IMG/VR virus record: IMGVR_UViG_3300027800_000014
Location: 1-37,907 of that record
Reading direction: 5' to 3' (one strand)
From: a virus
Length of the DNA: 37,907 nucleotides
The position numbers and the translations under genes were made by a program. Of this stretch, positions 2,301-30,323 are shown in pieces. Below the pieces are notes generated by a model, which had not been told where the DNA came from, made no database searches, and saw only the letters and a program-made list of their open reading frames with translations. The number at the start of each line of letters is the position of its first letter. Within the stretch, counting starts at the first letter, position 1.

Positions 2301-3209
2301 ATGCGAGAAACAGAAATAGCTATACTAAAAGCAAGAAAGAGAGCTAATATTAAAAAGGAATTAGTTCTTAAAGAAGAGATAAACTCCAAGATTGAATCTG
2401 TTGATGTTAAAGCTACTACAGCCATTGAACTGTCTAACAAAGTTATAGATAGCCTAAAAGAAACCAATCATGCGTTAGAAGTCATTAAGGAGCTTCCAAT
2501 TAAGACTATAGAAGGGAAGCCAGGGGAAGATGGATACACTCCTGTAAAGGATGTAGATTATTTTGATGGTAATGATGGTTATACTCCTGTAAAGGGAAAA
2601 GATTATTTTGACGGTAAGAATGGAAAGACTCCAAAGAAAGGAGAGGATTACTTCACACCAGAAGAAGTAAAACAATTCAAAAAAGAGGTTACACCTAAGA
2701 AGGGGAAGGATTATGATGATGGTAAAGATGGCTCTCCTGATACTCCTCACGAGATAAGAAATAAACTTTCTACACTTAGGGGTAGAGAAAGACTTGATGC
2801 TAAACATATACAGAATATAGATAAATACGTATCATTAAGTGTTACGCAAACAATGGGTGGTGGACAGGGCGGTGGGAGTTCTTATACATTACCTACGGCA
2901 AGTCCTACAGTTCTTGGTGGTATTAAAATTGGTGATAGAATAACAATAGACGCTAATGGAGTATTAAGTGCTGATGTTCAAACAGGTGCTACAGGAGTAC
3001 AGAGCGTAGTATCAGGAAATGACATAGCAATTGATAATACTGATCCAGTTAATCCAGTTGTATCTTTTATAGGAACAATACCAACAGATACTAATCAATT
3101 GACTAATGGAGCAGGATTTATAACAGCTGAAACTGATCCAGTATGGGAGAGCGAGAAGGTAAACTATGCTACTAAGAGTTTTGCTATAGCAATGTCCGTA
3201 GCCTTATAA
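2301..3209 (+). CDS. Fibre-like protein with collagen-like DGYTPVKG repeats
   Basis: This 302-residue protein starts with a coiled coil (about 1-70). It then has four tandem units of about 15 residues around 77-145, of the form DGYTPVKGKDYFDG, degrading to TPKKGEDYF and TPKKGKDYDDG. The C-terminal half has LPTASPTVLGGIKIG and TNGAGFITAETDPVWESEK, segments common in trimeric phage fibres. No S74 chaperone domain follows. It lies 9 bases after the portal and 16 bases before a giant fibre-like gene, a head-module place rather than a tail-tip place. I infer a trimeric fibre or capsid decoration; which virion part carries it is not shown. Confidence 0.65.
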   Translation: MRETEIAILKARKRANIKKELVLKEEINSKIESVDVKATTAIELSNKVIDSLKETNHALEVIKELPIKTIEGKPGEDGYTPVKDVDYFDGNDGYTPVKGKDYFDGKNGKTPKKGEDYFTPEEVKQFKKEVTPKKGKDYDDGKDGSPDTPHEIRNKLSTLRGRERLDAKHIQNIDKYVSLSVTQTMGGGQGGGSSYTLPTASPTVLGGIKIGDRITIDANGVLSADVQTGATGVQSVVSGNDIAIDNTDPVNPVVSFIGTIPTDTNQLTNGAGFITAETDPVWESEKVNYATKSFAIAMSVAL

Positions 3210-3225
3210 ATTATTAAATACAACA

Positions 3226-6200
3226 ATGAAAAAGAGAATAACAACATATACATTTGATGCAAGTGCAGGTACAATCACCTTTGGGTTTTCACCAGAGATT
3301 GAGGGATTCTCTTTAATAACAAACGTTGTTGATAATGTAGTTATATATCAATTCAATGACAATAACTTGGGTGGTACAGTATTAACAAATGTATTAACGC
3401 TTACATACGATACATCTTCAATGAGTGATACTGATGAATTAATGATTCTTTATGACGATGGGGTTGATACAGCAACTGTAACAGCCAATGCGGGGACTAA
3501 TCTTAATACTTCAGCTTTGGCAGTAGAGACAGGTGGTAATTTAGCAGCAATAAAGGCTAATACAGATGACATTGAAACATTACTTGGAACAATAGAAGGG
3601 AATCAGTTACCAGATGGACACAATGTAACTATAGACAACGTATCAATAGACGTAGATACAGGACTCACAGGCTTGGCTACAGAAACGACATTGTCCAGTA
3701 TAGATGGAAATGTAAACACTATAGCGGGTGGGATTGGTGCTTTAGCTACTACTGATTCAGTACAGGCGTTAGGCACTGCAATGACTGATAATACACAGGT
3801 AACACAGATAGTTAATGCAACGGGAGATGTTGTTACAGTTACAGGAAACAAATTAGATGTAAATGCGAGTATAGACACAACAGGACTTGCTCTGGCTGCT
3901 AATCAACAGACTGATGCTCTTACTGATGCAGAATTGAGAGCCACAGCAGTACCAATATCGGGTACGGTAACAGCAAACACAGGATTAGATTTATCGGGTT
4001 TGGCTACGAGTGCAAAACAATTACCCGATGGGCATGAAGTAGAAGTTAATAATTTCCCAACAGAATATCCATTACCCGCTGCACAAATAACTACGCTAAC
4101 ACCACCAGCTGCAATCACAGGGTTTGCAACCTCTGCTAAACAGTTAGCTGATAACCATCAAGTAACAGTGAGTAATATAGCTAATACGCCTGTAATAACA
4201 GGGTTCGCTACTGAAACAACTCTTGATTCTATTAAAGATACGGATGGTATTAAAAAGATTACCGACGCTCTACCTACAGGAACAAACTCCATAGGGAAAA
4301 TAAGTGATATAACAACATCTATTATACCTGGTACAGGTGCTACTAATCTAGGGAAAGCCAAGGGTAGTCAAGTTGGTGCTACTGATACGGGAGTTGCAAT
4401 ACTTGGCAAATTAAGAGCTGCTGACTCACATACGGATGAAGATGAAGGAGCTTATGATACCTTCTCCATGACTGATTTTCATGAGTTGAGAACTAAAGAC
4501 CAGAGGGCGATTGACTTGGCAAACTGTAACGTATACACGGATTACACGGCTATTTCAAACGACACTACAGGAATTGCTAACTCTACAAACCACGTCTTTG
4601 GAGCAGGGGCTGTAACCTTTAATAAAGTGAATGGTGCTGATAATACCGTCTATGGTGGAGTTTACAAGACAATGACAGCTTTTGATGTTTCTGAAATCTT
4701 TGAGGCTGGAGGATTTGTAGGGATTGGTGCATATCTACCATCATTGACGAATGTGATAAATGTATTTTTGAGAATAGGTACAGATACAACAAACTATAAC
4801 TGTTGGACTTGGCCAGTTGCCAACCTAACCGCAAGCACATGGATGAACCTACGAACACCTGCCGCCACTCCTGACTATGCACGAAACGCAGGGAACGGAT
4901 GGAATACAGCGGCTATCTCTTATGTTGCTTTTGGTGTTGAGTTTAACTCTGAAGCAAATACATTGTCAGGGATTATTATAGATCATGTCCACATGGTGGG
5001 AGGGCGTATAACTTCTACAGATACATCAACTGCTATTACCACGAACGTTAATACTGCAAATATGAATATATTAAAAGTGGGTGGAACTCCTACTGACACG
5101 GGGAATGGGACAACTTCTGCTGGTACATTACGGGTAACAGTATCTTCAGATACAACGGGAGTGTTGAGTGTCGATGACAACGGTGGAGCTTTAACAGTTG
5201 ATAATGGAGGCACGTTTGCAGTTCAATCCACAAACCAAGCAAATAGTGGTGTAGACATAGGAGACGTAACAATCAATAACGCAGCGGGTGCAGCAGCGGT
5301 AAACATACAGGACGGTGGTAATACTATAACAGTAGATGGTTCTGTAACAGCGAATGCAGGAACGAACTTGAATACCTCTACTCTAGCAGTAGAATCAGGA
5401 GGGAATCTAGCTTCTATTAAAACAAACACAGATAAAATACCAGCTCTTGGACAAGCGTTAGCGGGAGCTTCAGTACCAGTTATATTACCCGCAGCAACTA
5501 TAACAACCTTGACACCTCCAGCAGCTATAACGGGATTTGCAACTTCAGCTAAACAGGATACTATAGCAGGATATGTAGACGGTATTGAAGGTTATGTTGA
5601 TGGTATAGAGGGTTTATTGACAACAATAGATGCTGATACAAGCAATGTATCTACAAAGATTGATACTTTAGCTGGAGCGGTAGCAGGAACAGAGGTTCAA
5701 GTTGATGTGCTTACAATGCCAATGACTACAGTACAAGGAACTATAACAGCAAACTTGAGTGCTACGGATAATGCAGTACTAGATGATATTGCAGCTAACC
5801 AAACAGATGGAACACAAAAGACGCAGATTATAGATTCAGGAGGCGAGGCGGTAACAGTAACAGGCGGGAAGCTAGATGTTAATGCTTCTATAGATACTAC
5901 TGGATTAGCTACTTCTGCAAAACAAGATACGATAATAGGACATATAGACGGCATAGAAGGCTATGTAGATGGGATAGAAACAACACTAACGGCAATAAAT
6001 AATAAATTGGTTACGGGAACAGATATAGGGGACGTAACAATTAACAATAGTACAGGTGCGAATGCAGTTAATATACAAGACGGTGGTAATACTATAACAG
6101 TAGACGGAACGGTAACCGCTAACACGGGATTATCCCAACCTCTCACTGATACTCAATTGAGAGCGACTGCTGTACCAATATCAGTAGCCACAATACCTTC

Positions 6201-6990
6201 TCATAATGTAACTAATGCAGGTACTTTTGCAACACAAGCTACACTAGCAGCGGAAACAACAAAGGTAATAGGAACAGTTAATGTAGCAGCAGCACAATCA
6301 ATAGCAGTAACACAATCAGGAACTTGGGACGAGGTAGGGATAAACGATTCAGGAAACTCTATAACTGTTGATGGAACTGTACTTTTAGGAGCAAACTCTG
6401 GAGTCGATATAGGGAAACTAACAGCAAACCAATCAGTTAACGTTGCTCAAATGAATGGGGCAACAGTTACAATGGGCAATGGTGCGGCAGGAACAGGCGT
6501 TCAAAGAGTTACGATAGCTTCTGATTCTACAGGACAGATTAAACTAGCAGCAGGAACGGCAGGTATAGGTAAACTTACAGCTAATAGTGGAGTTGATATT
6601 GGGGATGTAGATATTTTAAGTATTGCAGCAGGAAACAACAATATTGGTGATGTAGATGTAGCCTCTATAGCAGCAGGTACAAATATCATTGGTAAGGTTG
6701 GACACGACATAACAGGGATAGGGCATGGAGTTAAAACAGTAACAACAGCGGGAACAGATGTAGCTTTAGCAGCCTCTACAGTATGTAAAAAGGTTGATAT
6801 TCAAGCTCAAACAGATAACACATCGCTGATAGCAGTTGGTGGTAGCGGAGTTGACGCAACAATAGCGACTGGAACAGGGATTGTATTAAATCCAGGAGAT
6901 ACATATTCATTGGAGATTGATAACCTAGCAGACGTATATATAGATTCTTTAGTTAATGGTGAGGGTGTGAGGTTCACATATTACACATAA
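3226..6990 (+). CDS. Giant repetitive beta-rich fibre or decoration protein
   Basis: At 1254 residues this is the largest gene. It is rich in Thr, Ala, Gly, Asn and Val and poor in Cys, and is made of shuffled repeats: VTANAGTNLNTS (3478 and 5345), TPPAAITGFATSAKQ (4099 and 5512), NIQDGGNTITVDG (about 5290 and 6060), KLDVNASIDTTGLA (about 3850 and 5870) and DGIEGYVDGIE (5578 and 5947). Residues about 404-600 are a non-repetitive insert with aromatic residues, like a jelly-roll or carbohydrate-binding domain. The last 85 residues (CKKVDIQAQTDN to GVRFTYYT) look like a beta-sandwich cap. No signal peptide or membrane segment is seen. Attachment to head or tail is unknown; its place beside the portal favours a head fibre. 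Confidence 0.7.
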   Translation: MKKRITTYTFDASAGTITFGFSPEIEGFSLITNVVDNVVIYQFNDNNLGGTVLTNVLTLTYDTSSMSDTDELMILYDDGVDTATVTANAGTNLNTSALAVETGGNLAAIKANTDDIETLLGTIEGNQLPDGHNVTIDNVSIDVDTGLTGLATETTLSSIDGNVNTIAGGIGALATTDSVQALGTAMTDNTQVTQIVNATGDVVTVTGNKLDVNASIDTTGLALAANQQTDALTDAELRATAVPISGTVTANTGLDLSGLATSAKQLPDGHEVEVNNFPTEYPLPAAQITTLTPPAAITGFATSAKQLADNHQVTVSNIANTPVITGFATETTLDSIKDTDGIKKITDALPTGTNSIGKISDITTSIIPGTGATNLGKAKGSQVGATDTGVAILGKLRAADSHTDEDEGAYDTFSMTDFHELRTKDQRAIDLANCNVYTDYTAISNDTTGIANSTNHVFGAGAVTFNKVNGADNTVYGGVYKTMTAFDVSEIFEAGGFVGIGAYLPSLTNVINVFLRIGTDTTNYNCWTWPVANLTASTWMNLRTPAATPDYARNAGNGWNTAAISYVAFGVEFNSEANTLSGIIIDHVHMVGGRITSTDTSTAITTNVNTANMNILKVGGTPTDTGNGTTSAGTLRVTVSSDTTGVLSVDDNGGALTVDNGGTFAVQSTNQANSGVDIGDVTINNAAGAAAVNIQDGGNTITVDGSVTANAGTNLNTSTLAVESGGNLASIKTNTDKIPALGQALAGASVPVILPAATITTLTPPAAITGFATSAKQDTIAGYVDGIEGYVDGIEGLLTTIDADTSNVSTKIDTLAGAVAGTEVQVDVLTMPMTTVQGTITANLSATDNAVLDDIAANQTDGTQKTQIIDSGGEAVTVTGGKLDVNASIDTTGLATSAKQDTIIGHIDGIEGYVDGIETTLTAINNKLVTGTDIGDVTINNSTGANAVNIQDGGNTITVDGTVTANTGLSQPLTDTQLRATAVPISVATIPSHNVTNAGTFATQATLAAETTKVIGTVNVAAAQSIAVTQSGTWDEVGINDSGNSITVDGTVLLGANSGVDIGKLTANQSVNVAQMNGATVTMGNGAAGTGVQRVTIASDSTGQIKLAAGTAGIGKLTANSGVDIGDVDILSIAAGNNNIGDVDVASIAAGTNIIGKVGHDITGIGHGVKTVTTAGTDVALAASTVCKKVDIQAQTDNTSLIAVGGSGVDATIATGTGIVLNPGDTYSLEIDNLADVYIDSLVNGEGVRFTYYT

Positions 6991-8499: not shown

Positions 8500-9072
8500 A
8501 TGGAAACTAAAGAAAATGTTGAGGTAAAGAACCAACCTGTCATTGAGGAAGCCGCTAAGGAATCCGAGAAGACAAATGATTCTACAACCGAGCATACATC
8601 TGAGAAGCCAGATAAAAGCACGGACATAATTAAAAGTCAGACAGGGCAAATACAAGCACTTCAGAAACAAATTGAAGAACTCAAAGCCAAGCCTGATGTT
8701 AAGTCTGCTCTTAAAGAACTGTTGGGAGATGTAAATGTGGAATCAGATGTAGATCCACTAGAAGCTCTAAAAAGTGAGTTTTCTTCTCTTAAATCTGAAT
8801 TAAATCAGACAAAGGCAGAACAGAAAAGAGATGCGTATATTGATAATTTACAGGGGGTAACAGAAGCAACTAAGAAATATCTGAAGAAGAGGGTAAACCC
8901 TTCTGATGATTTAGAAGCGGTTGTTAATACTGAGTTAGAAATGATAAATGAGGTTATTACTTCAAATACACCAACAACCAGTGATAGCAGACCAAACTCA
9001 ATTGGTTCAGTAAAAGGCAACGTAACAGATGCTGATTACATTCTAAATAACCCTGAGAAATTCAAATCCTAG
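8500..9072 (+). CDS. Capsid scaffold protein
   Basis: This 190-residue, acidic, highly helical protein sits directly before the major capsid gene, the standard place for a scaffold. It begins with a Glu/Lys/Thr-rich disordered stretch (1-45), then a coiled coil (about 46-70, QTGQIQALQKQIEELKAK), a second helix (about 90-110) and a helical C-terminus ending in the YILNNPEKFKS segment often seen in scaffold tails. Scaffolds guide prohead assembly and then leave or are cleaved. No protease is found in the head module. Confidence 0.85.
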   Translation: METKENVEVKNQPVIEEAAKESEKTNDSTTEHTSEKPDKSTDIIKSQTGQIQALQKQIEELKAKPDVKSALKELLGDVNVESDVDPLEALKSEFSSLKSELNQTKAEQKRDAYIDNLQGVTEATKKYLKKRVNPSDDLEAVVNTELEMINEVITSNTPTTSDSRPNSIGSVKGNVTDADYILNNPEKFKS

Positions 9073-9107
9073 AGTAGAGCAATTTTTATTTTTTAGGATT
9101 TACTAAA

Positions 9108-10073
9108 ATGGGTGCAGTAACAAGTAACTATAACAATCAATCTTCCGCTGGTGCAGCAGGATCAGTCGCTTATGCGATAACTCCATTTGCAATGGCAAAA
9201 GGTATTCAAACCTTAAAAAGCAACTTGGTTGTTACAAGCAAAATTAGAAACGTATCTGAAATAGCCAAAGTACAAGGTGGTGGTTATGCAGACAGCATTA
9301 GATTCCCTAAGTGGGGTTCTCTAACGGCTCAGAATAAAGCAGTCGGAACAGAAGCAACACGACAACAGGTAACAATGACCAAAGTCGACTTACAGTTAGA
9401 TACTTTCAAGACTGTTGACTTCTTAATCGAAGATTTCGGTGGATTATTCACACCAGCAGCAAAAGAAGCATTTGCAATCGAAGCAGGTGCAGCAATCGCA
9501 CAAGCAATTGAAACTGATGTTATCTCTAAGTACGCAAGTGCTGGAGTAGATACAGGAGATGTTGATACAGCAGCTTCAGTAGCTATGATTTCAACCTTGA
9601 AGAAACTTGCAAGAATAAACAAATGGAGAAATACAAGTCCATTCATTGCAGTTTGGGGTTCACAAGGTGAGTACGATCTATTGAACGACTCAACATTCAA
9701 GCAACATATGGTAACTGGTGGAGACCAGAGTGCAATCAGAGATGGATTCATAGGGAACATCTACGGATTCCAGAACTATGTCTCTAACATGATGCCAGCA
9801 GTAGCAGGTTCTCCAAGTGCAGAGCATGCAATTGCATTCCAACCAGAAGCAATCGCAATCGCATTTGTTGATATGACTACTCAGAGTCTTCCAGGCGTTG
9901 AAGTAACTCCAATGAATATCTCAGATGATGAGGGTAACCTTGTCTACTCAATGAGAAGTATCGTTGGTTACAATCAATTAGCTAGAGGATTAGAAGTATC
10001 ATTTGATACAATCTATGGAATAGCAGTTGTAGAGCCAACACTCTTAATTGATGTTACATACGGAGCATACTAA
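9108..10073 (+). CDS. Major capsid protein (HK97 fold)
   Basis: This 321-residue protein has a likely N-arm (1-35), an E-loop region (about 50-90, GGGYADSIRFPKWGS) and a P-domain helix (about 105-145, FGGLFTPAAKEAFAIEAGAA). The A-domain ends in a SMRSIVGYNQLARGLE stretch. Its codon use differs from most of the genome: GCA dominates for Ala and there are many C-ending codons (ATC, TTC, AAC), as expected for the most expressed gene. It follows the scaffold gene by 35 bases and a TAGGATTT leader. The next feature is a UUCG hairpin 12 bases after the stop. Confidence 0.9.
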   Translation: MGAVTSNYNNQSSAGAAGSVAYAITPFAMAKGIQTLKSNLVVTSKIRNVSEIAKVQGGGYADSIRFPKWGSLTAQNKAVGTEATRQQVTMTKVDLQLDTFKTVDFLIEDFGGLFTPAAKEAFAIEAGAAIAQAIETDVISKYASAGVDTGDVDTAASVAMISTLKKLARINKWRNTSPFIAVWGSQGEYDLLNDSTFKQHMVTGGDQSAIRDGFIGNIYGFQNYVSNMMPAVAGSPSAEHAIAFQPEAIAIAFVDMTTQSLPGVEVTPMNISDDEGNLVYSMRSIVGYNQLARGLEVSFDTIYGIAVVEPTLLIDVTYGAY

Positions 10074-10108: not shown

Positions 10109-10366
10109 ATGGAAATGAAAGACTTTATATGGGTTACGCCTAACCCTGAAATTGTTACACGCTTCATTGCCTTACCGCCTCGGCTTAATCTCGGTTGCGA
10201 TATATGGACTGAGGTATATATTGGTGAAAAACTTCTCATACATAAATCGTATCTACAAGTAATGCTTAACCGCGGATTCATGATCGGGGATAAAGGATTC
10301 ATATTCGATACCTGGGAGGAAGCAGAGAACTCTCCTAGTAAATATAAGATTAAGGTAACAGAATAA
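10109..10366 (+). CDS. Unknown 85-residue protein ahead of the first glycosyltransferase
   Basis: I do not recognise this protein. It is mixed alpha/beta with no membrane span. The ATG at 10109 (or 10115) lies directly behind the UUCG hairpin, and the stop shares one base with the GT start (TAATG at 10364-10368), so the two are translationally coupled. Pairs such as KLLIHKSYLQVMLNRGFMIG suggest a small folded domain. By position it may assist the GT or be a head protein. Confidence 0.7.
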   Translation: MEMKDFIWVTPNPEIVTRFIALPPRLNLGCDIWTEVYIGEKLLIHKSYLQVMLNRGFMIGDKGFIFDTWEEAENSPSKYKIKVTE

Positions 10367-11331
10367 TGAAAATATACTACAAGTTTACGAATGCTATTAA
10401 TGGGGGACTTGGTGTGCTTGGGAAAGGGATACAACAAGGATTAGTTAATGCAGGGCATGAGATTGTAGGAAGTAACCCTGATATATGTTTTTGTTATGGT
10501 ATGCCTAACACTCTAATAGAAACCAGAGAAAAGTTTCCTGATAAAAAGATTGTTTACTATACTGTATTTGAATCAAGTAAATATCCTGTAGGTTGGATAG
10601 ATACTATCAAGAAGAGCAAACCAGACTTGGTATTAACAGCCTCTAAGTTTAATCAATGGGTATTGAAACGACAAGGTATAGAATCAAAGGTGTGGCATCA
10701 TGGTATAGATGATAGATGGCAGTATAAAGCTAGAAGAGATGATGGAGTATTTACATTCATCCACTGGAACGCCTACGAATGGCGAAAAGGATGGGAGATA
10801 GTACTTGGTGCTTTCCTAGAGGAATTCGATGTTAGTGAGCCAGTACAGCTCGTTATGAAGGCAAGGGATAGAGGGAATGGCAATTGGTTAATACCTCAAG
10901 TAGGAGATGGATTAGTTGCTCCTAATGTGAAAGAGATAATTGGACATATATCAGATTTAGAAATGACTGAAATGCTAGAGACTGCTGATTGTGGAGTATT
11001 CCCTGTTAAAGGTGAAGGTTGGTTCATGCCTTCGTTTGAATGCGTAGCTCAAGGTATTCCTGTTATACTCCCTAAGCAAATGGCAATGAAAGAACAATGG
11101 GGAACAGGGTATTTAGATTGTGGTATTGAGGGGTATGTAAATGCTTCACCACGATATCCAGGATTTATGATAATGCCAAGTAAAGACGGTGTTAAAAAAC
11201 AAATGAGATGGGCATACGAACATGAGGAGGAGTGTAGAGAACTAGGAGAAAAAGGTAGCAAAGAAGTGTATAATAAATATAACTGGAGAAGAATTATTAA
11301 TGAGCTTGAGAGCTATTTAAGTTTAGTTTAG
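10366..11331 (+). CDS. GT4-like glycosyltransferase in the head module
   Basis: This 321-residue GT-B type enzyme would transfer sugar from a nucleotide-sugar donor. The acceptor half (about 1-120) is short. The donor half holds the GT4 E-x7-E motif (Glu217 to Glu225 in EGWFMPSFE) followed by CVAQGIPVILP, and an earlier segment (IHWNAYEWRKGWEIVLGAF, about 132-150) fits the R/K-G region that contacts the diphosphate. It lies between capsid and connector genes, so the likely acceptor is a virion protein rather than DNA or host envelope, but this is inference. It shares its start with the stop of 10109. A second GT4 gene lies at 34538. Confidence 0.85.
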   Translation: MKIYYKFTNAINGGLGVLGKGIQQGLVNAGHEIVGSNPDICFCYGMPNTLIETREKFPDKKIVYYTVFESSKYPVGWIDTIKKSKPDLVLTASKFNQWVLKRQGIESKVWHHGIDDRWQYKARRDDGVFTFIHWNAYEWRKGWEIVLGAFLEEFDVSEPVQLVMKARDRGNGNWLIPQVGDGLVAPNVKEIIGHISDLEMTEMLETADCGVFPVKGEGWFMPSFECVAQGIPVILPKQMAMKEQWGTGYLDCGIEGYVNASPRYPGFMIMPSKDGVKKQMRWAYEHEEECRELGEKGSKEVYNKYNWRRIINELESYLSLV

Positions 11332-11337: not shown

Positions 11338-11676
11338 ATGTTTATTGTAAATCAATGCGGAAGGATAGTTGATTTGCCAGAAGAAATGGAAGAGTCTGGA
11401 TTTAAGCAGGCAAAAGTTGTTCTTTCTATATCGGATTCTTTAATGGAGAATGGTAACTATGTAGCTCCTTCGGGAGGACAGGGTGGGGTGTTAGTATCTA
11501 AGAGTGGTAGAAACCTTAGAAATGATATTCTTGCTAAGTTCCCTGATGTCATAAGAGACTCGGAGTATATAGAAAGACATGTCAATGCAGAAGAAACTAA
11601 ATTAATTGTTCCTAAAAATGATAGATCCAAGGTACGCAGAAATGCTAAAACAACCAAAGTATCTAGTAAAAGATAG
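11338..11676 (+). CDS. Stand-alone GRIVD-domain protein, paralogous to the N-terminus of the second GT
   Basis: The protein has 112 residues. The first 20 (M-F-I-x-N-x2-GRIVDLPEEMEES) match the N-terminus of the GT at 34538 (M-Y-I-x-N-x2-GRIVDVSEAFEES) almost position for position. After a Gly-rich turn (SGGQGG, about 46-51) the rest is basic and ends in a Lys/Arg-rich tail. It begins 6 bases after the first GT. The shared domain in a stand-alone form beside one GT and fused to another suggests a GT partner, docking or acceptor domain. The family function is unknown to me. Confidence 0.75.
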   Translation: MFIVNQCGRIVDLPEEMEESGFKQAKVVLSISDSLMENGNYVAPSGGQGGVLVSKSGRNLRNDILAKFPDVIRDSEYIERHVNAEETKLIVPKNDRSKVRRNAKTTKVSSKR

Positions 11677-11838: not shown

Positions 11839-12468
11839 ATGTCAGATATATATTCAATGTTTAGAAAGTTCATCAATGATGATGTAACGGATTATTCCAT
11901 GCCCGATTTAGAAACACTCAAGTTCTTAGACAGCGGGATTCTAAAGCTATCCGAATTCGCAGATAAAAGGATTTATGAGGACATAACTATCACAAGTACA
12001 GACATCGCAAATGGTTATAAAGATTTAACACATGATTGTCTTTCTCTTATCTATACCGATATGCCATACGAGGGTGTTTACTGGCAATTAGACGGACTCA
12101 GAAGGATTGTATTTTGGGATACTGATTATATTACAGAGGGTACTTTTGATTTCAAGTACAAGACTACATACAAGATGTTTGATGGTGCATTAAGAGATAA
12201 TGCTTACTTTGATTATCCAGATAGCTCTAGTCTTGATCTAGGCATTGTATTTTGGGCATTGGCACAATATCAGTCAGTTAATGGAATCATTGCTCCTGAT
12301 GGCTCTAGGAACGCTACAATAAGTAAATCAGAAGAGGGGCTAAGCGTATCTTATTCCTCAGCAGAAACATTAGACATGAGTTCCCCTTCGGCACTTAAAG
12401 AAAGGGCAATAGAGTTGTTCCAAGGATTGAATAATAAATCTAAATATATCTTTTCAATAACAGTATGA
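11839..12468 (+). CDS. Head-tail connector (adaptor) protein
   Basis: This 209-residue protein has an N-terminal helical region (about 8-45, SMFRKFINDDVTDYSMPDLETLKFLDSG). It is followed by a beta-rich middle and a helical C-terminal part (about 130-200), a layout like the adaptor proteins that dock below the portal. It is first in the order adaptor, stopper, gp10-like, terminator that ends at 13712, and overlaps the next start by 4 bases. The assignment rests on gene order and fold pattern, not on a diagnostic motif. Confidence 0.65.
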   Translation: MSDIYSMFRKFINDDVTDYSMPDLETLKFLDSGILKLSEFADKRIYEDITITSTDIANGYKDLTHDCLSLIYTDMPYEGVYWQLDGLRRIVFWDTDYITEGTFDFKYKTTYKMFDGALRDNAYFDYPDSSSLDLGIVFWALAQYQSVNGIIAPDGSRNATISKSEEGLSVSYSSAETLDMSSPSALKERAIELFQGLNNKSKYIFSITV

Positions 12469-22823: not shown

Positions 22824-22841
22824 GTTATTAAGGTTTAAGTT

Positions 22842-23021
22842 ATGCGTAAATCCTTTGATGATATGTTAAAGGGATTACTTGTGAGGTGGGAAAGGAGAAA
22901 CCCACAAAGTGGTGAGTTACAGAAAAGGGAGAAAGCCGAAGATTCTATTGTGAATTACTTTGTGATGTTTTTCTCAATGGGATTTCTAGGTTTGATAGTT
23001 TTAATTAAATTGATTATGTAA
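22842..23021 (+). CDS. 59-residue single-span membrane protein
   Basis: From an ATG 18 bases after the M23-type gene, it has a basic N-terminal half (MRKSFDDMLKGLLVRWERR) and one C-terminal membrane span (about 36-59, NYFVMFFSMGFLGLIVLIKL). It ends 5 bases before the next gene. The place within the lysis block suggests a holin accessory or antiholin; no family is recognised. Confidence 0.65.
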   Translation: MRKSFDDMLKGLLVRWERRNPQSGELQKREKAEDSIVNYFVMFFSMGFLGLIVLIKLIM

Positions 23022-23026
23022 ATAAA

Positions 23027-23383
23027 ATGACTGACTTCATCACAGATAATACAATTATTTCAGGATTGATTGGTTTCATTGCTCCTGCATTGATACCTGT
23101 TATATTCGGTTGGATAGCTAAAGCAACTAAGAAAGAAATTACAAACGCCCAAAAGAAAGTAGTAATACTCGTGCTTGCCATGGGTGTAGCATTGCTAGTT
23201 ATATGTTTCAACTATACATGGACAGCATTCTCATGGGCTGCTGTTAAAGAGTTCTTAATAACACTTATGACAAACTATATTGTAGTGTTAGGAATGGTTA
23301 ATACAGTTTATACAATGATTGTTAAACTCTTCCCTGCAATAGATCAAAAATTGGAACTTGTTGAAAAGATTATAAGAAAGTAA
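23027..23383 (+). CDS. Holin candidate with three membrane spans
   Basis: This 118-residue protein has three hydrophobic spans (about 9-30, 43-62 and 74-97) and a charged C-terminus ELVEKIIRK, which fits a class I holin. Small size and place 3' of the M23-type gene support this. Holins pore the inner membrane at the lysis time. Four small membrane proteins in the block make it uncertain which is the holin. Confidence 0.65.
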   Translation: MTDFITDNTIISGLIGFIAPALIPVIFGWIAKATKKEITNAQKKVVILVLAMGVALLVICFNYTWTAFSWAAVKEFLITLMTNYIVVLGMVNTVYTMIVKLFPAIDQKLELVEKIIRK

Positions 23384-23426
23384 AGGCTGACAGTGGTGGG
23401 TAAACTTTCCGATATCCATCACCAAT

Positions 23427-23455
23427 TAGCTTTTAAGCTATAGCTCTTTAAGAGC
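23427..23455. promoter_or_regulatory. Two adjacent near-palindromes before the SD-bearing cassette
   Basis: TAGCTT-tt-AAGCTA (23427-23440) and GCTCTT-t-AAGAGC (23443-23455) lie side by side in the 87-base gap. They have loops too short for stable RNA hairpins, so dimeric protein-binding sites on DNA are more likely. They sit just ahead of a GAGGTG Shine-Dalgarno and the ATG at 23471. Confidence 0.5.
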
Positions 23456-23470
23456 AGAAAGAGGTGCTAC

Positions 23471-23662
23471 ATGGTACAAGCTATTTGTAACTTTTGCGGT
23501 AAGTTTGCCAAGACCTACAAGTGTAGGATTGTCGGTATGGATATGGAAGTCATAGCCTGTCGGAAGTGTGTGCGAACACACCCAATTCAACTTGTTCCCA
23601 TGGAGGAATATCATGAAGATGAAGCCGAAAGCGAACAAGAAGTGGAGAAACAGGGATTATAG
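23471..23662 (+). CDS. Small zinc-ribbon protein
   Basis: This 63-residue protein has two CxxC pairs (CNFC at about 6-9 and CRKC at about 30-33), enough for one structural zinc, then an acidic tail (EEYHEDEAESEQEVEKQ). It has a genuine Shine-Dalgarno (AGAGGTG) 4-5 bases before the ATG, unlike nearly all other genes here. The next gene overlaps its 3' end and starts within it. It may be an antirepressor or RNA-polymerase-binding factor; this is a guess from size and fold only. Confidence 0.7.
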   Translation: MVQAICNFCGKFAKTYKCRIVGMDMEVIACRKCVRTHPIQLVPMEEYHEDEAESEQEVEKQGL

Positions 23663-23948
23663 ATATCTAGCCGAGTTGAAAACCTACGCAGGTTTATCTA
23701 AAGAAGAATTAGACATAGCAATACACGGTATTCCATTTGAGGGGAAACGATATCCGTTATGTTATGTATTCTGGGGGGACAACCGTAAGTATCGGCAAGT
23801 AAGAATAACCCTAACTGGAGAGGTAGGAACAATAATTGGGGACAACCTCATTACACTACCTAAAGCAGAACACTGCATACACCGAGCAATAGTTCGAGTG
23901 GGGGATAGGGTTACAGATTTAGCTTTTAGCGTTTTACGCAATGTGTAG
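23613..23948 (+). CDS. Unknown basic protein with strong Shine-Dalgarno
   Basis: The start is placed at the ATG at 23613 because GGAGG lies 6 bases upstream (23602-23606). An in-frame GTG at 23568 would add 15 residues but lacks a signal. The 111-residue product begins with a very basic segment (MKMKPKANKKWRNRD) followed by a beta-rich domain (PLCYVFWGDNRKY, VRITLTGEVGTII). Arg codons are mostly CGN, unlike the AGA-rich neighbours, which points to a separate origin. The function is not recognised. It is followed at once by a terminator. Confidence 0.7.
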   Translation: MKMKPKANKKWRNRDYRYLAELKTYAGLSKEELDIAIHGIPFEGKRYPLCYVFWGDNRKYRQVRITLTGEVGTIIGDNLITLPKAEHCIHRAIVRVGDRVTDLAFSVLRNV

Positions 23949-23956
23949 TGCCTATT

Positions 23957-24020
23957 GAGGGGGTTTCATCTGTCTGGAGTCTTTCTCCGTCATATATGAT
24001 ACCCCCTCTTTAGTTTGTTT
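23957..24020 (+). terminator. Strong intrinsic terminator
   Basis: GAGGGGGT (23957-23964) pairs perfectly with ACCCCCTC (24001-24008). After one mismatch, TCAT and ATGA extend the stem, and an inner GGAG/CTCC hairpin stacks on top. A T-rich run (TTTAGTTTGTTT) follows. It closes the late and lysis transcript and, being symmetric, may also stop minus-strand RNA. Confidence 0.85.
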
Positions 24021-24027
24021 CAAGACT

Positions 24028-24108
24028 GAGGATATCCTCTATATGCAGTTAATACTGTCTGCAAATGAATGACTATATTACAGAATAGGACTCCTTGGTC
24101 GTAATATA
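24028..24108. promoter_or_regulatory. Palindromes in the leader of the phosphoesterase gene
   Basis: The gap holds a perfect 12-base palindrome GAGGATATCCTC (24028-24039), a small CAGT-taat-ACTG repeat (about 24045), and an 8-base inverted repeat TATATTAC (24074-24081) / GTAATATA (24101-24108). The last ends 17 bases before the ATG at 24126. A clear promoter is not visible. Operator or leader RNA roles are both possible. Confidence 0.5.
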
Positions 24109-24125
24109 AAATTAGTTAGAATAAA

Positions 24126-25148
24126 ATGCCCCAAAAACGGAAGGAATTGGAACGGAAGGAAACTCCTAAAATTACTATAATAAATCACATGAACGATAAA
24201 GATCCAGGATTGTACACGAGTGAGAGAGAAGAGAGTTTCAAGTCCGTGCGTGAGATAGAGAAAGATACGTTAGAGAAAGCCAGAATACAGATAGAAGAGG
24301 GTTCAATGCCAGCAAATGTTTCCTTTGATGATTTTCACGAAGAGGCTTTAAGAAGAGCAGAGTTTAGGGAAAAGGTAGAAGGAGAAAAACGCCATGTAGA
24401 AATTAAAATTGATACTGACAAACCAGTAGCTATAGCTTTCCTTTCGGATTTACATATAGGAAATGCTGGAATAGATTATGATTTATTAAAGAAGACTGGT
24501 GAAGTCATTAGAGAACACCCCCTTGCGTATTGCATAACTGGCGGTGATATAACAGATTCTTTATTCTTTGACTACGGGGAGGAAATTCTAAACATGCAAG
24601 AGCAATATGTTTACATGAACAAATTACTCTCCTGGATTGGTTCAGATAATATCCTAGCAGGTATACAAGGCAACCACGAGAGCTGGACTAGAAAGAGTGG
24701 AGTAACTAATTACATAGAGTTTAGTAACCATACACAACGCCCATTACTTAGAGGTGTTTCATTTGTTGATTTAACCGTTGGAAATATCCCTTACAGATTG
24801 TTGATGGCACATCGGTTTAGAGGCGAAAGTATGTATAATCCGACCCACCAAGAATCAAGAGCGAACAGAGAGCTGCAGGGAGCCGACATAATCATGGCGG
24901 CACATACTCATAAACCAGGAGAAAGTATTATATATCAACCTGAATATGGTGGTGGTGCTAGAAAGGTTGCATTAGTAAATGGAAAGACTTTTAAGAGTTT
25001 AGATGCCTATGGAAAGGATCAAGGATTCACTCCTGTAACTGGTGAACAGCTTGGGTGCAATTGGATAATCCTTAACCACGATAAAAAGATGATAAGAATT
25101 GCAAGTAATACAGATGAAATGATAGAAACCATGTCAGCGTATCTGTAG
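24126..25148 (+). CDS. Calcineurin-like metallophosphoesterase
   Basis: The 340-residue protein has a charged helical N-terminal part (1-95) and then a full metallophosphoesterase set: SDLHIGN (Asp108, His110), GGD (Asp141), GNHES (Asn183, His184), MAHR (His229) and AAHTHKP (His260, His262). All metal ligands are present, so it should be an active two-metal phosphatase or nuclease. Phage members are often linked to DNA or nucleotide processing, but the substrate is unknown. It is the first gene after the terminator, with no Shine-Dalgarno. Confidence 0.9.
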   Translation: MPQKRKELERKETPKITIINHMNDKDPGLYTSEREESFKSVREIEKDTLEKARIQIEEGSMPANVSFDDFHEEALRRAEFREKVEGEKRHVEIKIDTDKPVAIAFLSDLHIGNAGIDYDLLKKTGEVIREHPLAYCITGGDITDSLFFDYGEEILNMQEQYVYMNKLLSWIGSDNILAGIQGNHESWTRKSGVTNYIEFSNHTQRPLLRGVSFVDLTVGNIPYRLLMAHRFRGESMYNPTHQESRANRELQGADIIMAAHTHKPGESIIYQPEYGGGARKVALVNGKTFKSLDAYGKDQGFTPVTGEQLGCNWIILNHDKKMIRIASNTDEMIETMSAYL

Positions 25149-25177
25149 TATAATTAAATAACGATTAGTGATTTTAT

Positions 25178-25214
25178 GGGCTAGACAAGGATTCCCTTCC
25201 ACCTCCTCTAGCCC
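25178..25214 (+). promoter_or_regulatory. Nested hairpin between phosphoesterase and triple-HTH gene
   Basis: GGGCTAGA (25178-25185) and TCTAGCCC (25207-25214) pair perfectly. Inside is AAGG-attc-CCTT. There is a TATAAT at about 25149 upstream, so it could lie in a short leader, or it may be the end of the phosphoesterase mRNA. No T-run follows, which makes a classic terminator less likely. Confidence 0.6.
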
Positions 25215-25237
25215 GTTGAATTTAATACTATAAGTGT

Positions 25238-25268
25238 TTGACAAATCCCCTATAAAGTTTGATATTAG
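25238..25268 (+). promoter_or_regulatory. Sigma70-type promoter with leaderless start
   Basis: TTGACA (25238-25243) is followed after 17 bases by GATATT (25261-25266), overlapping TG-A-TATTAG. The ATG at 25272 lies 5 bases past GATATT, so RNA would start at or beside the start codon. This is the best -35/-10 pair in the window and supports leaderless translation of the HTH gene. Confidence 0.7.
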
Positions 25269-25271
25269 ACT

Positions 25272-25736
25272 ATGCTGTCCCACATCATAATGAAACAAAT
25301 CCTAGAGTTAAGAGAACGAGGATATAGCTACAAAGAAATTAGAGAGGAAACTGGAGTGTCATGCGTTACCATCTCTTCATACTGTTCACGATATAGACCA
25401 AACCTCAAGAACATTGCAATCAGATACAAATTCACTAGCCATTTAGATCAAATCACTTTACTTAGAAGAAAGGGTAGAACGATTGAGTATATTGCTAAGA
25501 CTGTAGGACTCTCAGAAACCACTATTAGAAAGGTATGTAAAATATATTGTCCTGGATTAAGAAATATAGCCCAAAGAAAGATTACTCCTAAACAAGAGAT
25601 AGAAATAATACAGTACTACAGATATCGTTATCCTATAAAGCAAATAGCTAAAATGGTTGGAGTTAGCAAGAATACGGTAAACAGAATACTCAAGTGTCAG
25701 GGATTCAATCCTAAACTTATGTATGCAGATAGATAG
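25272..25736 (+). CDS. Triple helix-turn-helix DNA-binding protein
   Basis: The 154 residues form three tandem HTH units of about 50 residues each (about 6-42, 57-93 and 107-143). Each contains a recognisable turn: YKEIREETGVSCVTIS, IEYIAKTVGLSETTIR and IKQIAKMVGVSKNTVN. The units resemble resolvase or transposase OrfA type HTHs, but no catalytic domain is attached. The product is strongly basic and made almost entirely of DNA-binding modules. It has its own promoter and a leaderless start, and the next promoter starts one base after its stop. A regulator that reads tandem half-sites is likely. Confidence 0.85.
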   Translation: MLSHIIMKQILELRERGYSYKEIREETGVSCVTISSYCSRYRPNLKNIAIRYKFTSHLDQITLLRRKGRTIEYIAKTVGLSETTIRKVCKIYCPGLRNIAQRKITPKQEIEIIQYYRYRYPIKQIAKMVGVSKNTVNRILKCQGFNPKLMYADR

Positions 25737-25745
25737 TGGTATAAT
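25737..25745 (+). promoter_or_regulatory. Consensus extended -10 promoter
   Basis: TGG-TATAAT matches the extended -10 consensus fully and begins right after the TAG of the triple-HTH gene. RNA would start at about 25751-25752, so the first bases of the transcript would be GUCGGGUCAA, the sequence complementary to the hairpin loop at 26123-26132. Confidence 0.65.
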
Positions 25746-25758
25746 AAATAGTCGGGTC

Positions 25759-25785
25759 AAGTTTAGTTTATTTTAAGTTTAGTTT
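25759..25785 (+). repeat. Two tandem AAGTTTAGTTT repeats in a leader
   Basis: AAGTTTAGTTT occurs at 25759-25769 and 25775-25785, a 16-base spacing, between the start of transcription and the ATG at 25795. It may bind a protein or stand in for a ribosome-binding site. TTTAGTT-like strings also occur ahead of other genes. Confidence 0.55.
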
Positions 25786-25794
25786 TGTAAAGTT

Positions 25795-26115
25795 ATGTCA
25801 AAAGAAAAAAATAGCAGTGGTGCTTCACAACCTATTGCAGTGAGCGAATCGGAGCTAAAAATGCACAAGGTTCGGGTGTTATCAGATAATTTCCATGCGA
25901 ATATGTGGCAAGAAAGGGGAATCTCCTTTGGAGAGTTCATGACTATCATTGAATCTTTGGGGCTTCCAGAAAGGCAGTATGGTGCAGTTAGACAGCTTAT
26001 TGCTAGGAAGTTAGACGACAGAGTTGGCTGTATTATGAGTATGTTCGACCAACAGTTAGAACAGTATTTTGACTATAAAAGAGAGAATTGTGAGAATGTC
26101 GCAGTTCTAAAGTAG
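25795..26115 (+). CDS. Unknown helical protein flanked by complementary 10-mers
   Basis: This 106-residue protein is not recognised. It has a polar N-terminus (about 1-20), then helices (SELKMHKVRVLSDNFHANMW; FGEFMTIIESLGLPERQYGA; MSMFDQQLEQYFDYKRE). No membrane span or nuclease motif is seen. A 10-base sequence at the predicted mRNA start (25751-25760) is the perfect complement of one just past the stop (26123-26132). It may be a small regulator of the following transcript. Confidence 0.7.
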   Translation: MSKEKNSSGASQPIAVSESELKMHKVRVLSDNFHANMWQERGISFGEFMTIIESLGLPERQYGAVRQLIARKLDDRVGCIMSMFDQQLEQYFDYKRENCENVAVLK

Positions 26116-26268
26116 CCGTTCATTGACCCGACACGGCTCTTGTAGGCAACAGACAATGGTATGTTGCAACCAATCTACAAGGTGCAGGACTTAATCGTCT
26201 TGTGCCTACAGGAGCTAATAACTATAGGTAGTTGAACAATGCTTGTATTAATATGATAATCAAGCATT
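26114..26268 (+). ncRNA. Four-hairpin structured RNA tract
   Basis: Consecutive perfect inverted repeats: AGCCGT/ACGGCT (26114-26138); CTTGTAG-GCAACA with TGTTGC then CTACAAG (26139-26181); AACTA/TAGTT (26220-26233); AATGCTTG/CAAGCATT (26238-26268). TGTAGGCA (26141-26148) can also pair with TGCCTACA (26203-26210), so two folds compete. The loop of the first hairpin holds TTGACCCGAC, complementary to 25751-25760. There is no T-run, and the ATG at 26287 follows 18 bases later. It may be a 3' UTR, a leader switch or a processed RNA. Confidence 0.65.
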
Positions 26269-26286
26269 AACATTAGCAGTAATATT

Positions 26287-26493
26287 ATGAACTTTTTCCA
26301 AGTTAGAAAGTATACAAAGTTCCCATTTAGGAATGTAAAATGTGATGAATTAATTCAATCATTTGAAACTCTCGATCAAGCCAATGCCTTTTCAATTGCA
26401 TTCAATACTAAGAGGAATGAAAGAGGAAAGTATATAGTCAAAAGTAATGATGGATACTATGTTTGTGAGATAAAAAAACCAAGTTTCAGATAA
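26287..26493 (+). CDS. Small unknown protein
   Basis: A 68-residue, basic protein (MNFFQVRKYTKFPFRNVKCD). It has a helix (SFETLDQANAFSIAFNTKRN, about 25-44) and a beta end (YIVKSNDGYYVCEIKKPS). The family is not recognised. It follows the structured RNA by 18 bases and lacks a Shine-Dalgarno. Confidence 0.65.
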   Translation: MNFFQVRKYTKFPFRNVKCDELIQSFETLDQANAFSIAFNTKRNERGKYIVKSNDGYYVCEIKKPSFR

Positions 26494-26542
26494 CTATTAT
26501 AAGCTTATTGACTTCCATTTTTAGTTATTGTATGTTTGAAGT

Positions 26543-26638
26543 ATGAAAAGAAATCGAACACATTTCACAAAGTTAGATAGTTTTATAGAGGGGGCAGTTT
26601 ACTGTTCGGTTTCCTGTCCTCTCTGTAAAGATATTTAA
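26543..26638 (+). CDS. 31-residue Cys-containing leader peptide candidate
   Basis: An ATG-to-TAA frame lies over the hairpin ahead of the replication initiator. The product starts MKRNRTHFTKLD and ends with three Cys (CSVSCPLCKD), a CxxxC-x2-C pattern. If translated, ribosomes would open the 26587-26624 stem and free the element at 26604-26612. It is short and may be chance; the overlap with RNA structure makes it of interest. Confidence 0.35.
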   Translation: MKRNRTHFTKLDSFIEGAVYCSVSCPLCKDI

Positions 26639-26650
26639 TTTAAACCGAAC
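26587..26650 (+). promoter_or_regulatory. Predicted H-type pseudoknot in the initiator mRNA leader
   Basis: Stem 1: 26587-26597 pairs with 26614-26624 (11 pairs, two G-U). Its 16-base loop has GTTCGGTTT (26604-26612), which is a perfect 9-base complement of AAACCGAAC (26642-26650), 5 bases before the ATG at 26656. Closing stem 2 would block ribosome access to the start. The pairing is seen; regulation is inferred. Confidence 0.65.
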
Positions 26651-26655
26651 AAACA

Positions 26656-27369
26656 ATGGAGAATACAACTTGGGTAAAACTCTATAGAAAATTCACCGAA
26701 TGGGAATGGTATTCTGATATCAATACGAAGGTGTTATTTTTGCACCTTCTTTTGAGAGTGAATTATAAAGACAAAAATTGGAGAGGTGTTTTGGTTAGGC
26801 GTGGATCAATTATAACTAGCCTCGGAAACCTCGCGGAAGAAACAGGTTTGACAGTCATGCAGGTGAGGACATCAGTAAAGAAGCTAATTTCAACACACGA
26901 GATAACACACCTCGGGACACGAGAATATAGCGTTATAACGATAGAAAAGTATAATGAGTACCAAACCGATAACAAGCCAAGTAACACACAAGTAACAAAC
27001 GAGCAACAAACCTCTAACACACCTGTAACAACTACTAAAGAATGTAAAGAAAGAAAGAATATATCTAAAGATACGGCTACGCCCGTCTATGGAAACAAAG
27101 ATTTAATTTCTTTGAAGAAGTTTCTAATGAGTAACTACCCAAAACCTTTGGATGGTGTAGTCGATACTAGAAAGCTACAGAACTTAAAACAAGTATCAAC
27201 AAAAAGAAAGAATCAAGATGAATGGATGGATGAAGATTGGAAACAGAATATAAAGAAGTTCTTAATCTTGTATCTACAGGAAACGCAAGAAGAGTATCTA
27301 GTGAATAGCATTGATAAACTCCGAGAGAAAGCCAAACTCTGGAGAGAGTACCGTGGCAAAATAAATTAA
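26656..27369 (+). CDS. DnaD-like replisome organiser / replication initiator
   Basis: The N-terminal 100 residues are a winged-helix domain of the phage replisome organiser type: WVKLYRKFTEWEWYSD, VRRGSIITSLGNLAEETG, then LTVMQVRTSVKKLISTHEIT and YSVITIEKYNEYQ. Next is a low-complexity Thr/Asn/Gln linker (about 105-128), and then a helical C-terminal region (about 145-237). Such proteins bind the origin, which often lies in their own gene, and load the host helicase. Tandem AAGTAACA strings lie in the linker DNA (26979 and 26990). The leader can form a pseudoknot. Confidence 0.8.
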   Translation: MENTTWVKLYRKFTEWEWYSDINTKVLFLHLLLRVNYKDKNWRGVLVRRGSIITSLGNLAEETGLTVMQVRTSVKKLISTHEITHLGTREYSVITIEKYNEYQTDNKPSNTQVTNEQQTSNTPVTTTKECKERKNISKDTATPVYGNKDLISLKKFLMSNYPKPLDGVVDTRKLQNLKQVSTKRKNQDEWMDEDWKQNIKKFLILYLQETQEEYLVNSIDKLREKAKLWREYRGKIN

Positions 27370-27382
27370 GTAACTATTTAAT

Positions 27383-27790
27383 ATGGAGAACCTAGTAAAA
27401 ACAGATATCGGATTGATTACAACTATCAACGCTAATTGGTTATTCAAACAGGGTATTATCACCAGAGAGGGATATATCAGCAATAATCTTTTAGATGGAA
27501 TGGTAGATAAAAAGGTTCAAGCGTACTCATATTTTAGATGGTTAATTGATGATGTAAAGAATAAAATTCCAACAACACCTAAACAAGTTTATCTTGAGAT
27601 AGATGACTTAATAGATGTTATGAGAGTGGGGAGTATTGATAAACCATATAAGGTTGATGAAAAAGAATTCCGTTATATAGCAAGATATCCAAAGGTAGAC
27701 AATGTATATAACTCTGGAAGGAAAGCATTTACAGAACACCAGCCAATAAACAAGGGAAAGAAAAAACAGTTTGTAGATTTTGAGGATTAG
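27383..27790 (+). CDS. Unknown protein after the replication initiator
   Basis: A 135-residue protein that follows the initiator by 13 bases. It has INANWLFKQGIITREGY (about 15-31), helices around 45-60 (VQAYSYFRWLIDDVKN) and a basic C-terminal tail (NKGKKKQFVDFED). It could be a helicase-loading or DNA-binding partner by position, but no family is recognised. Confidence 0.7.
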   Translation: MENLVKTDIGLITTINANWLFKQGIITREGYISNNLLDGMVDKKVQAYSYFRWLIDDVKNKIPTTPKQVYLEIDDLIDVMRVGSIDKPYKVDEKEFRYIARYPKVDNVYNSGRKAFTEHQPINKGKKKQFVDFED

Positions 27791-27814
27791 TTAAATTTAT
27801 TTATTAAATAATAT

Positions 27815-28312
27815 ATGAAAATCCTAAACTTAAAAGACCCAGTTTATGACTTTAAGCTAAACCTTGTTGTTGAGTGTGATTACGATGAGTTTAGAAAATT
27901 AGTTCTTGACAATGACCAATATGACTGTGGTGATTTTGCAGATGAGACAGTTGGGATGTATGTGCCAATAGAGGATAAGAATGTTTATTACATGTACATA
28001 AGAGATATGGATATCCCAATAATCGCCCATGAGATATTGCATATGGTATTTGACATGCTGACTAGCAAGGGTTTGTCGTTGTCGGATAGTAGCGAGGAAG
28101 CATACACATATTCTTTTGAATATTGGATGCGTTTGATATTAACAAAGATTATGCCAAATATCGTAAGTCAGAAAATGAGTAGACCAGTGAAACCTATTTT
28201 ATATGGCGATATTTCTGATTTATCATGCACAAATAATTCTGCCTATAAGCACAGCTCTACTTATTGCCCTGATAGTCTGATATACAGTGGCTCGGCTCAT
28301 TGTTTGTACTAA
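27815..28312 (+). CDS. HExxH zincin-like metallopeptidase
   Basis: The 165-residue protein has an HEILH zinc-binding helix (His72, Glu73, His76) after a beta strand (NVYYMYIRDMDIPIIA). About 18 residues later comes SSEEAYTYSFEYW, whose Glu94/95 is the expected third ligand (gluzincin-like spacing). A C-terminal tail has three Cys (SCTNNSAYKHSSTYC and HC). Small phage proteins of this HExxH-plus-EEAYxY type are known but uncharacterised. A cytosolic protease acting on host or phage proteins is inferred. It has an AT-only leader. Confidence 0.7.
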   Translation: MKILNLKDPVYDFKLNLVVECDYDEFRKLVLDNDQYDCGDFADETVGMYVPIEDKNVYYMYIRDMDIPIIAHEILHMVFDMLTSKGLSLSDSSEEAYTYSFEYWMRLILTKIMPNIVSQKMSRPVKPILYGDISDLSCTNNSAYKHSSTYCPDSLIYSGSAHCLY

Positions 28313-28336
28313 ATCTAATTTAATATCTAAATAGAA

Positions 28337-28582: not shown

Positions 28583-28607
28583 TTAATTAAATTTTAGTTA
28601 TACAGAG

Positions 28608-29078: not shown

Positions 29079-29081
29079 TAT
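29053..29081 (+). promoter_or_regulatory. Sigma70-type promoter inside the 3' end of the nuclease gene
   Basis: TTGACA (29053-29058), 17 bases, then TAATAT (29076-29081). It overlaps the nuclease stop and would start RNA near 29088, 26 bases before the ATG at 29114. The GGTGTAAT string is shared with the candidate at 30540. Confidence 0.6.
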
Positions 29082-29113
29082 GTAATTATAATAAATTATT
29101 AATCATTATATTT

Positions 29114-29305: not shown

Positions 29306-29313
29306 TTACTACT

Positions 29314-29583: not shown

Positions 29584-29585
29584 TC

Positions 29586-30065: not shown

Positions 30066-30076
30066 ACTAGATAAAC

Positions 30077-30322: not shown

Positions 30323-30323
30323 C

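Follow-up and report, generated by a model that had tools for sequence, protein, structure and literature searches.

The window, by which we mean the whole 37,907-nt stretch of viral DNA analysed, is the complete circular genome of an uncultured phage, with a unit of 37,780 bp. The 127 bases at its start are repeated exactly at its end, and the circular junction is bridged by a second IMG/VR contig. A megablast search with window bases 1-25,000 found no match among 50,697 phage records, and on the host there were four weak matches in genome contigs. The genes considered here lie in the head gene cluster and at a second site near the terminase genes:

9108-10073, + strand: major capsid protein (phrog_267/283, "major head protein"), 5' of GT1 in all relatives found
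10109-10366, + strand: gp85, a small protein of 85 aa separating capsid protein and GT1 in 10/10 lineages (synteny)
10366-11331, + strand: GT1, a GT4-type glycosyltransferase of 321 aa and core head-cluster gene (ORF, PHROG, synteny, model)
11338-11676, + strand: gp112, a small protein immediately 3' of GT1 in 10/10 lineages (synteny)
11839-12468, + strand: putative head-tail connector, the next conserved gene (named by position; no family match)
33922-34356, + strand: HNH protein at the flank of the sugar cassette
34538-35785, + strand: second transferase in the variable cassette, with a gp112-like domain and a GT4 catalytic part (residues ~90-400)
34538-34654, + strand: gp112-like N-terminal domain (residues 1-39) of the 34538 transferase
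35754-36428, + strand: MptE/GT42-like protein of 224 aa in the variable cassette, overlapping the 34538 gene (weak profile similarity)
36443-36829, + strand: gp36443, a conserved protein at the terminase-side flank of the cassette
36860-37168, + strand: putative small terminase (by position)
Downstream of the small terminase, crossing the circular junction to 679: large terminase

The gp85 stop and the GT1 start share one base. The first-pass annotation had placed GT1 between capsid and connector genes; the capsid side of that placement stands, with one 85-aa gene between, while the connector owes its name to position. At the second site the order is HNH, 34538 transferase, 35754, gp36443 and the terminase genes. 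Positions 32166-32633 of the window encode a YopX-family protein (5.6e-11).

The GT1 reading frame is open from ATG to stop and contains E217 and E225 in an E217-x7-E225 arrangement. GT4 enzymes are marked by an E-x7-E pair together with a basic residue that binds the nucleotide diphosphate. GT1 matched PHROG 2170, "glycosyltransferase", at 3.6e-27. Against Pfam Glycos_transf_1 it scored 19.3 bits and the copy in its closest relative (L008) 16.9 bits, both under the 26.4-bit cut-off, which 5/5 of the scanned relatives L006, L015, L017, L018 and L019 passed with 29.1-53.5 bits. A GT1 profile searched against solved structures gave 3oy2 as its best match (6e-10). An AF2 model built from a 7-sequence alignment (mean pLDDT 80.7) resembled GT4/GT-B enzymes over its whole length, with the two Rossmann-like domains of the GT-B fold. 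Foldseek searches with this model again placed 3oy2, the chlorovirus protein B736L, at the top (E 1.3e-13). VIA-align gave Z-scores of 20-23 against GT4 enzymes over ~290 residues; the best was BaBshA (Z 23.4, rmsd 3.4, 293 aligned), and BshA, MshA and PimA fell within one Z unit of each other (Z 23.0-23.4, rmsd 3.4-4.4, 293-295 aligned). The ORF, the PHROG match and the GT4-type model thus agree with the original description of an intact GT4-like enzyme carrying this motif at 10366-11331.

Among the aligned GT1 homologues, K141 and E217 are present in 15/15 and E225 in 13/15, and all three residues are kept in 12/12 lineages of the GT1 group. Both E225 exceptions, with Q, are Streptomyces phage proteins: glutamine replaces the second catalytic glutamate in the PHROG 2170 glycosyltransferases of two such phages (L003 9953-10918 and L026 6047-7042). 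By what is established for GT4 enzymes, this catalytic set would make GT1 active and retaining. No membrane segment was detected in GT1 (maximum 19-residue hydropathy 1.04). A 14-row GT1 tree, in which 6/11 inner branches stayed open, served for grouping alone.

Scans of IMG/VR recovered GT1 relatives at 88% (L008), 63% (L015, identical to L016 in GT1 and gp112 and counted with it as one; L044), 62% (L045), 57% (L019), 55% (L017), 54% (L006), 53% (L047) and 40% (L018) identity. Some records were redundant: a single contig, matching the window exactly over the parts compared, accounts for L004, L007, L013 and L061; a second accounts for L005, L008, L014, L042 and L062; and L046 and L048 duplicate the L019 and L018 contigs, respectively. 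A further ten GT1-like proteins, distant from the window (19-26%, L049-L058) and lying within open frames of 700-1300 aa, were excluded from all counts, and the L021 contig, which stops 250 bp past the capsid gene, is uninformative on GT1. The order capsid protein, gp85, GT1, gp112 was found in 10/10 distinct lineages, window included, at GT1 identities down to 40%, and the same putative connector followed gp112 in every GT1 contig that reached that far.

Between the window and L008 the dN/dS of GT1 was 0.072, compared with 0.065 for the capsid protein, and we conclude that strong purifying constraint acts on GT1. When L008 was omitted, GT1 was better conserved than the capsid protein in 12/15 pairs from seven lineages (mean 0.51 vs 0.46), and capsid and GT1 identities were weakly correlated (Spearman 0.44, p 0.10). 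The capsids of L017 and L018 are closer to each other (55%) than their GT1s are (41%). This disparity and the weak correlation indicate that some recombination between capsid and GT1 genes has occurred. Separately, dS between the window and L008 was low in the scaffold and capsid genes (0.27 and 0.21; window 8500-10073), against 0.52-0.78 in the measured neighbours, as if this capsid segment had been exchanged recently.

We then considered the association between GT1 and its capsid. GT1 and capsid profiles run on 15 records found both genes in the same four and neither in 11. G002 and G009 (both genes) and G008 (no GT1) had been known beforehand, leaving 12 new records, two with both genes and 10 with neither; short contigs among the 15 may conceal a GT1 or capsid gene. 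G018 and G023 carry a GT1 homologue (31-33%) 80-85 bp after the same capsid family, without gp85. In G018 the homologue is part of a 731-aa protein that bears a second GT4-like part. It is followed by a 300-aa protein (24.5% identical to the 34538 transferase; no PDB match by itself), a 282-aa GT4-like protein with a weak mannosyltransferase match (0.0056), a methyltransferase-like protein of 179 aa, and a GDP-mannose 4,6-dehydratase (4.6e-102). In every record found, comprising 12 lineages, GT1 therefore goes together with a single capsid type. It was absent from the distant capsid relatives L020 and L022 (about 30%), so the link is a property of this branch and not of the whole capsid family.

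At the second site the 34538-35785 protein is a clear Glycos_transf_1 member (3.8e-18). Between the same flanks, L008 carries Glycos_transf_2 and Methyltransf_24 proteins and an unknown protein of 292 aa. Upstream of the terminase, G009 (GT1 53%) encodes a GT4 part, a GT2/MGAT2-like protein and a protein of 646 aa that combines Glycos_transf_2, Methyltransf_24 and TOD1/MUCI70 parts; a phage-coded sulfotransferase in the same cassette (L059 8315-8923) matches Sulfotransfer_3 at 9.3e-20. No cassette was found between HNH and terminase in L018 (GT1 40%). The readable sites in GT1 phages of the ten-lineage group (n=4) thus hold three differing cassettes and one none. Sugar-type genes at the gp36443-terminase site, recognised by Pfam or BLAST, also occur in other gp36443 phages (L063, L071, L073, L074), and in further gp36443 phages the genes were judged by eye to be epimerase-like. 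G008, which lacks GT1, carries relatives of the 34538 transferase (48%) and of 35754 (57%), accompanied by epimerase, kinase-like and methyltransferase genes, ~9 kb before the terminase. We conclude that the sugar genes at the second site form an exchangeable cassette.

A comparison of sugar-transferase genes among relatives, which the first-pass annotation had proposed, therefore separates a fixed GT1 from an exchanged HNH-terminase cassette. With GT1 a constant member of the head cluster, the finding of a glycosyltransferase there is stronger than first claimed. The idea that the GT4 and DUF115/GT42 genes form a system as a pair did not survive: in the closest relative that place is taken by a GT2-family transferase and a methyltransferase, so the pair of 34538 and 35754 is not a fixed system. 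Apart from the sugar genes, the terminase regions of the window (36860-37907 plus 1-679) and of L008/L062 (L062 6566-8315) differ: the large terminase of L008/L062 gave no BLAST match (1e-4) to that of the window, and the small terminases of the two are 54% identical, though the flanking portal (94%) and gp36443 (90%) are far closer. From these identities the contrast appears to be a packaging-module swap.

The 35754 protein is harder to place. It scored 26.5 bits against Pfam MptE-like, under the 34.6-bit cut-off, and its PHROG matches were phrog_2111 and phrog_4603 ("alpha-2;3-sialyltransferase", 5e-12). The top PDB match of an 8-sequence profile was the GT42 sialyltransferase CstII (0.0027); of the other sugar or pterin enzymes, MptE (0.071) came closest behind it. 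Maf structures were not among the matches of this profile, which carries no weight, and the AF2 model (pLDDT 48.3) is too poor to decide the family. GT42 membership is thus weakly indicated, and GT42 and MptE compete. Of three sugar-transferase-type genes counted initially, GT1 and the 34538 Glycos_transf_1 protein hold up, while the third depends on this weak GT42 similarity.

The two sites share a domain. The 34538 transferase, whose GT4 part starts near residue 90, begins with a version of the N-terminal ~40 aa of gp112. When a gp112 N-terminal profile was run against 874 ORF starts, the start of this transferase (1.6e-8) was the only clear match beyond the orthologues. The 48% relative in G008 is without the gp112-like domain. 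The related start of the G018 transferase scored 0.062, a value at which a gp112-like fused domain in G018, and likewise in G023, is suggestive. No phage record matched the 34538 N-terminal domain as query. The gp112 proteins of the window, L015 and L019 had no Pfam match, and the L047 copy reached 0.016, under the cut-off.

Taken together, these observations make virion glycosylation the most likely role of GT1 and the cassette, and we consider it probable. The reading is built on the catalytic motif, the predicted GT4 fold, the capsid linkage, purifying selection, cassette exchange and domain sharing; from these we infer the activity of GT1, its sugar and acceptor, the order of action and the benefit. 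GT1, as a retaining-type GT4 enzyme, would be made from the head operon within the head-assembly programme and would move a sugar from a nucleotide-sugar donor to a head protein, likeliest the capsid protein, or else gp85 or gp112. The terminase-side cassette would then lengthen or decorate this sugar, here through the 34538 transferase and the 35754 protein, and in relatives through other transferases, methyltransferases or a sulfotransferase. The gp112-type domain, free beside GT1 or fused to the second transferase, may bring the enzymes to a common acceptor. Modification of virion proteins, as first proposed, is thereby the best-supported use of these genes, given a GT1 tied to one capsid type in 12 lineages and a Che8-like cassette; the suggested purpose, shielding the particle or mimicking the host, is speculation. 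Several observations count against virion glycosylation. The capsid C-terminus has no Ser/Thr-rich tail (capsid Ser+Thr 15.6%), PHROG 2170 homologues in Streptomyces and Rhodococcus phages do not lie beside the capsid gene, L020 and L022 do without GT1, and L018 keeps GT1 yet has no HNH-terminase cassette.

We also looked at a Thr-rich repeat protein (3226-6990). Its candidacy as a necessary acceptor is weakened because L018 keeps GT1 with the MuF gene directly after the portal and the repeat proteins of L019 differ. In the window the interval between portal and MuF gene (2301-6990) encodes proteins of 302 aa and 1254 aa, the larger repeat-rich; in relatives it holds 726 + 907 aa (L008), 629 aa (L006), other repeats (L019) or none (L018). 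By its gene content this interval appears to be a variable fibre-like cassette.

A more elaborate form of virion glycosylation may be entertained, tentatively and with more doubt than belief: a two-part system in small siphophages, in which a priming transferase in the head operon would be inherited with one capsid type and an exchangeable cassette would add the outer sugars. This cassette, located near the terminase or next to the capsid gene, would comprise transferases, methyl- or sulfotransferases and nucleotide-sugar enzymes, and the gp112 N-terminus would be a dedicated docking domain that brings transferases, whether separate or fused to it, to the head as it grows. If true, such a system would be a phage counterpart of a glycan with a conserved core and a variable outer chain.

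Alternatively, GT1 and the cassette could alter the host surface, for receptor masking or superinfection exclusion, with the place in the late operon incidental. Phage glycosyltransferases that alter serotype are well known (PMC12619734 also mentions them), and the wall and lipid glycosyltransferases TarM and PimA are among the GT4 fold matches of the GT1 model. However, GT1 has no membrane segment, unlike a membrane-bound, Gtr-type serotype-converting glycosyltransferase, and an incidental, non-systematic look noticed no partner flippase or membrane protein. GT1 also sits among head genes, tied to one capsid type, and its better conservation than the capsid in 12/15 pairs is unusual for a receptor-masking gene. 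We therefore regard action on the host surface as unlikely.

The strict position among head genes could instead mean that GT1, while retaining a glycosyltransferase fold, has a structural or assembly function in the head, a reading to which the change of E225 to Q in 2/3 aligned actinophage homologues lends something. Retention of K141, E217 and E225 in all 12 group lineages, and the further enzymatic sugar genes that follow GT1 in G018, make a non-enzymatic role very improbable. Virus-encoded glycosyltransferases that modify DNA are known, and Pyle et al. 2024 reportedly describe such enzymes. Glycosylation of hypermodified bases in the phage DNA would, however, be a poor fit here, and we set it aside as highly improbable: no base-modifying gene, whether for a dCMP hydroxymethylase or of thymidylate-synthase-like type, turned up in 22,824-34,537 (smaller ORFs partly scanned), where the two ORFs of at least 200 aa encode a metallophosphoesterase-type protein and a DnaD-like loader, and GT1 is linked to the capsid gene rather than to genes of replication. 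Finally, the PHROG category of the GT1 family, "moron, auxiliary metabolic gene", would suit a recently acquired moron with no fixed role or a random insertion, which identical placement in 10/10 lineages and a dN/dS of 0.072 rule out for practical purposes.

If virion glycosylation is correct, a capsid-linked glycosyltransferase and swapping cassettes in a further, small-siphophage lineage would mean that glycan coats are a strategy of wider occurrence among phages. It would also single out the capsid protein, gp85 and gp112 as candidate acceptors and the gp112-type domain as a candidate for docking.

Known systems resemble this one to differing degrees. The chlorella virus NY2A protein B736L (3oy2), the best solved structure for both the GT1 profile and the Foldseek model search, is a eukaryotic-virus protein, and several bacterial GT4 enzymes equal it as a model match in VIA-align. 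PHROG 2170 is common to GT1, Wofford gp42 and Comrade gp19/20 (Stanwilliamsviridae). The catalytic cores of the Wofford, Trina (gp56) and Comrade gp19 proteins can be aligned with GT1, with Q at E225 in 2/3, and the Stanwilliamsviridae and Rhodococcus phage glycosyltransferases are about 25-27% identical to the GT1 group. The genomes of Wofford, Comrade, Trina and Peregrin are 129-139 kb, with the glycosyltransferase upstream of RNR and lysin genes and not directly beside the capsid gene. Peregrin gp60 is a distant relative of the GT1 group (24.7% to L018), and glycosylated virions have been suggested for this Rhodococcus phage in the excerpted text of PMC13313380.

The 35754 protein is related (27-28%) to PmgP of P1, which in the 8.6-kb stretch read lies in a morphogenetic cluster adjoining the annotated glycosyltransferase PmgQ. 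In that cluster pmgO, annotated as a sialyltransferase, and pmgP stand beside pmgQ (L038 3411-5969); the functions of all three are annotated as putative. Given this grouping, P1 virions might merit a glycan check. The excerpts of two cryo-EM papers (PMC13033339, PMC13252515) treat glycan binding and contain nothing on glycosyltransferases.

Closer in kind is the mycobacteriophage Che8. In the last 11.5 kb of its genome, the part read, three glycosyltransferase genes adjoin HNH at the genome end, and, as in the window, phage-coded glycosyltransferases lie beside HNH, one with a Methyltransf_24 part. The Che8 proteins gp108-110 are Glycos_transf_2/Methyltransf_24, Glycos_transf_2 and Glyco_transf_25 proteins, and their PHROGs differ from those of the window. 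Since these enzymes belong to other glycosyltransferase families, the analogy is not one of common descent: the window system appears, from its gene content, to work like known virion glycosylation, yet not to be the Che8 set by descent. Papers citing Freeman et al. 2023 (PMC12363180, PMC11256854, PMC12619734) attribute virion glycosylation to only a few actinobacteriophages; they report sugar-modified capsid and tail-tube proteins in mycobacteriophages and name Che8, Corndog and Myrna.

The arrangement in the head cluster had at first been thought notably unusual. As excerpted, PMC3706429 already describes Cluster J mycobacteriophages (Omega, Thibault, Courthouse, LittleE) with 8-10 genes between capsid and connector, including several glycosyltransferases and methyltransferases, so that glycosyltransferase genes in this place are shared with the window. 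The Cluster J genes are variable, whereas the window group usually has one conserved GT4 gene between gp85 and gp112; unlike Cluster J, it also combines a 37.8-kb genome with variable sugar genes at the terminase. The likeness is one of description, and on it G018 comes closer to the Cluster J arrangement than the rest of the group. PMC3706429 raises the question of whether the Cluster J enzymes act on viral or host targets, and the GT1 phages, whose set of genes is small and strictly conserved, bring it within reach of a test.
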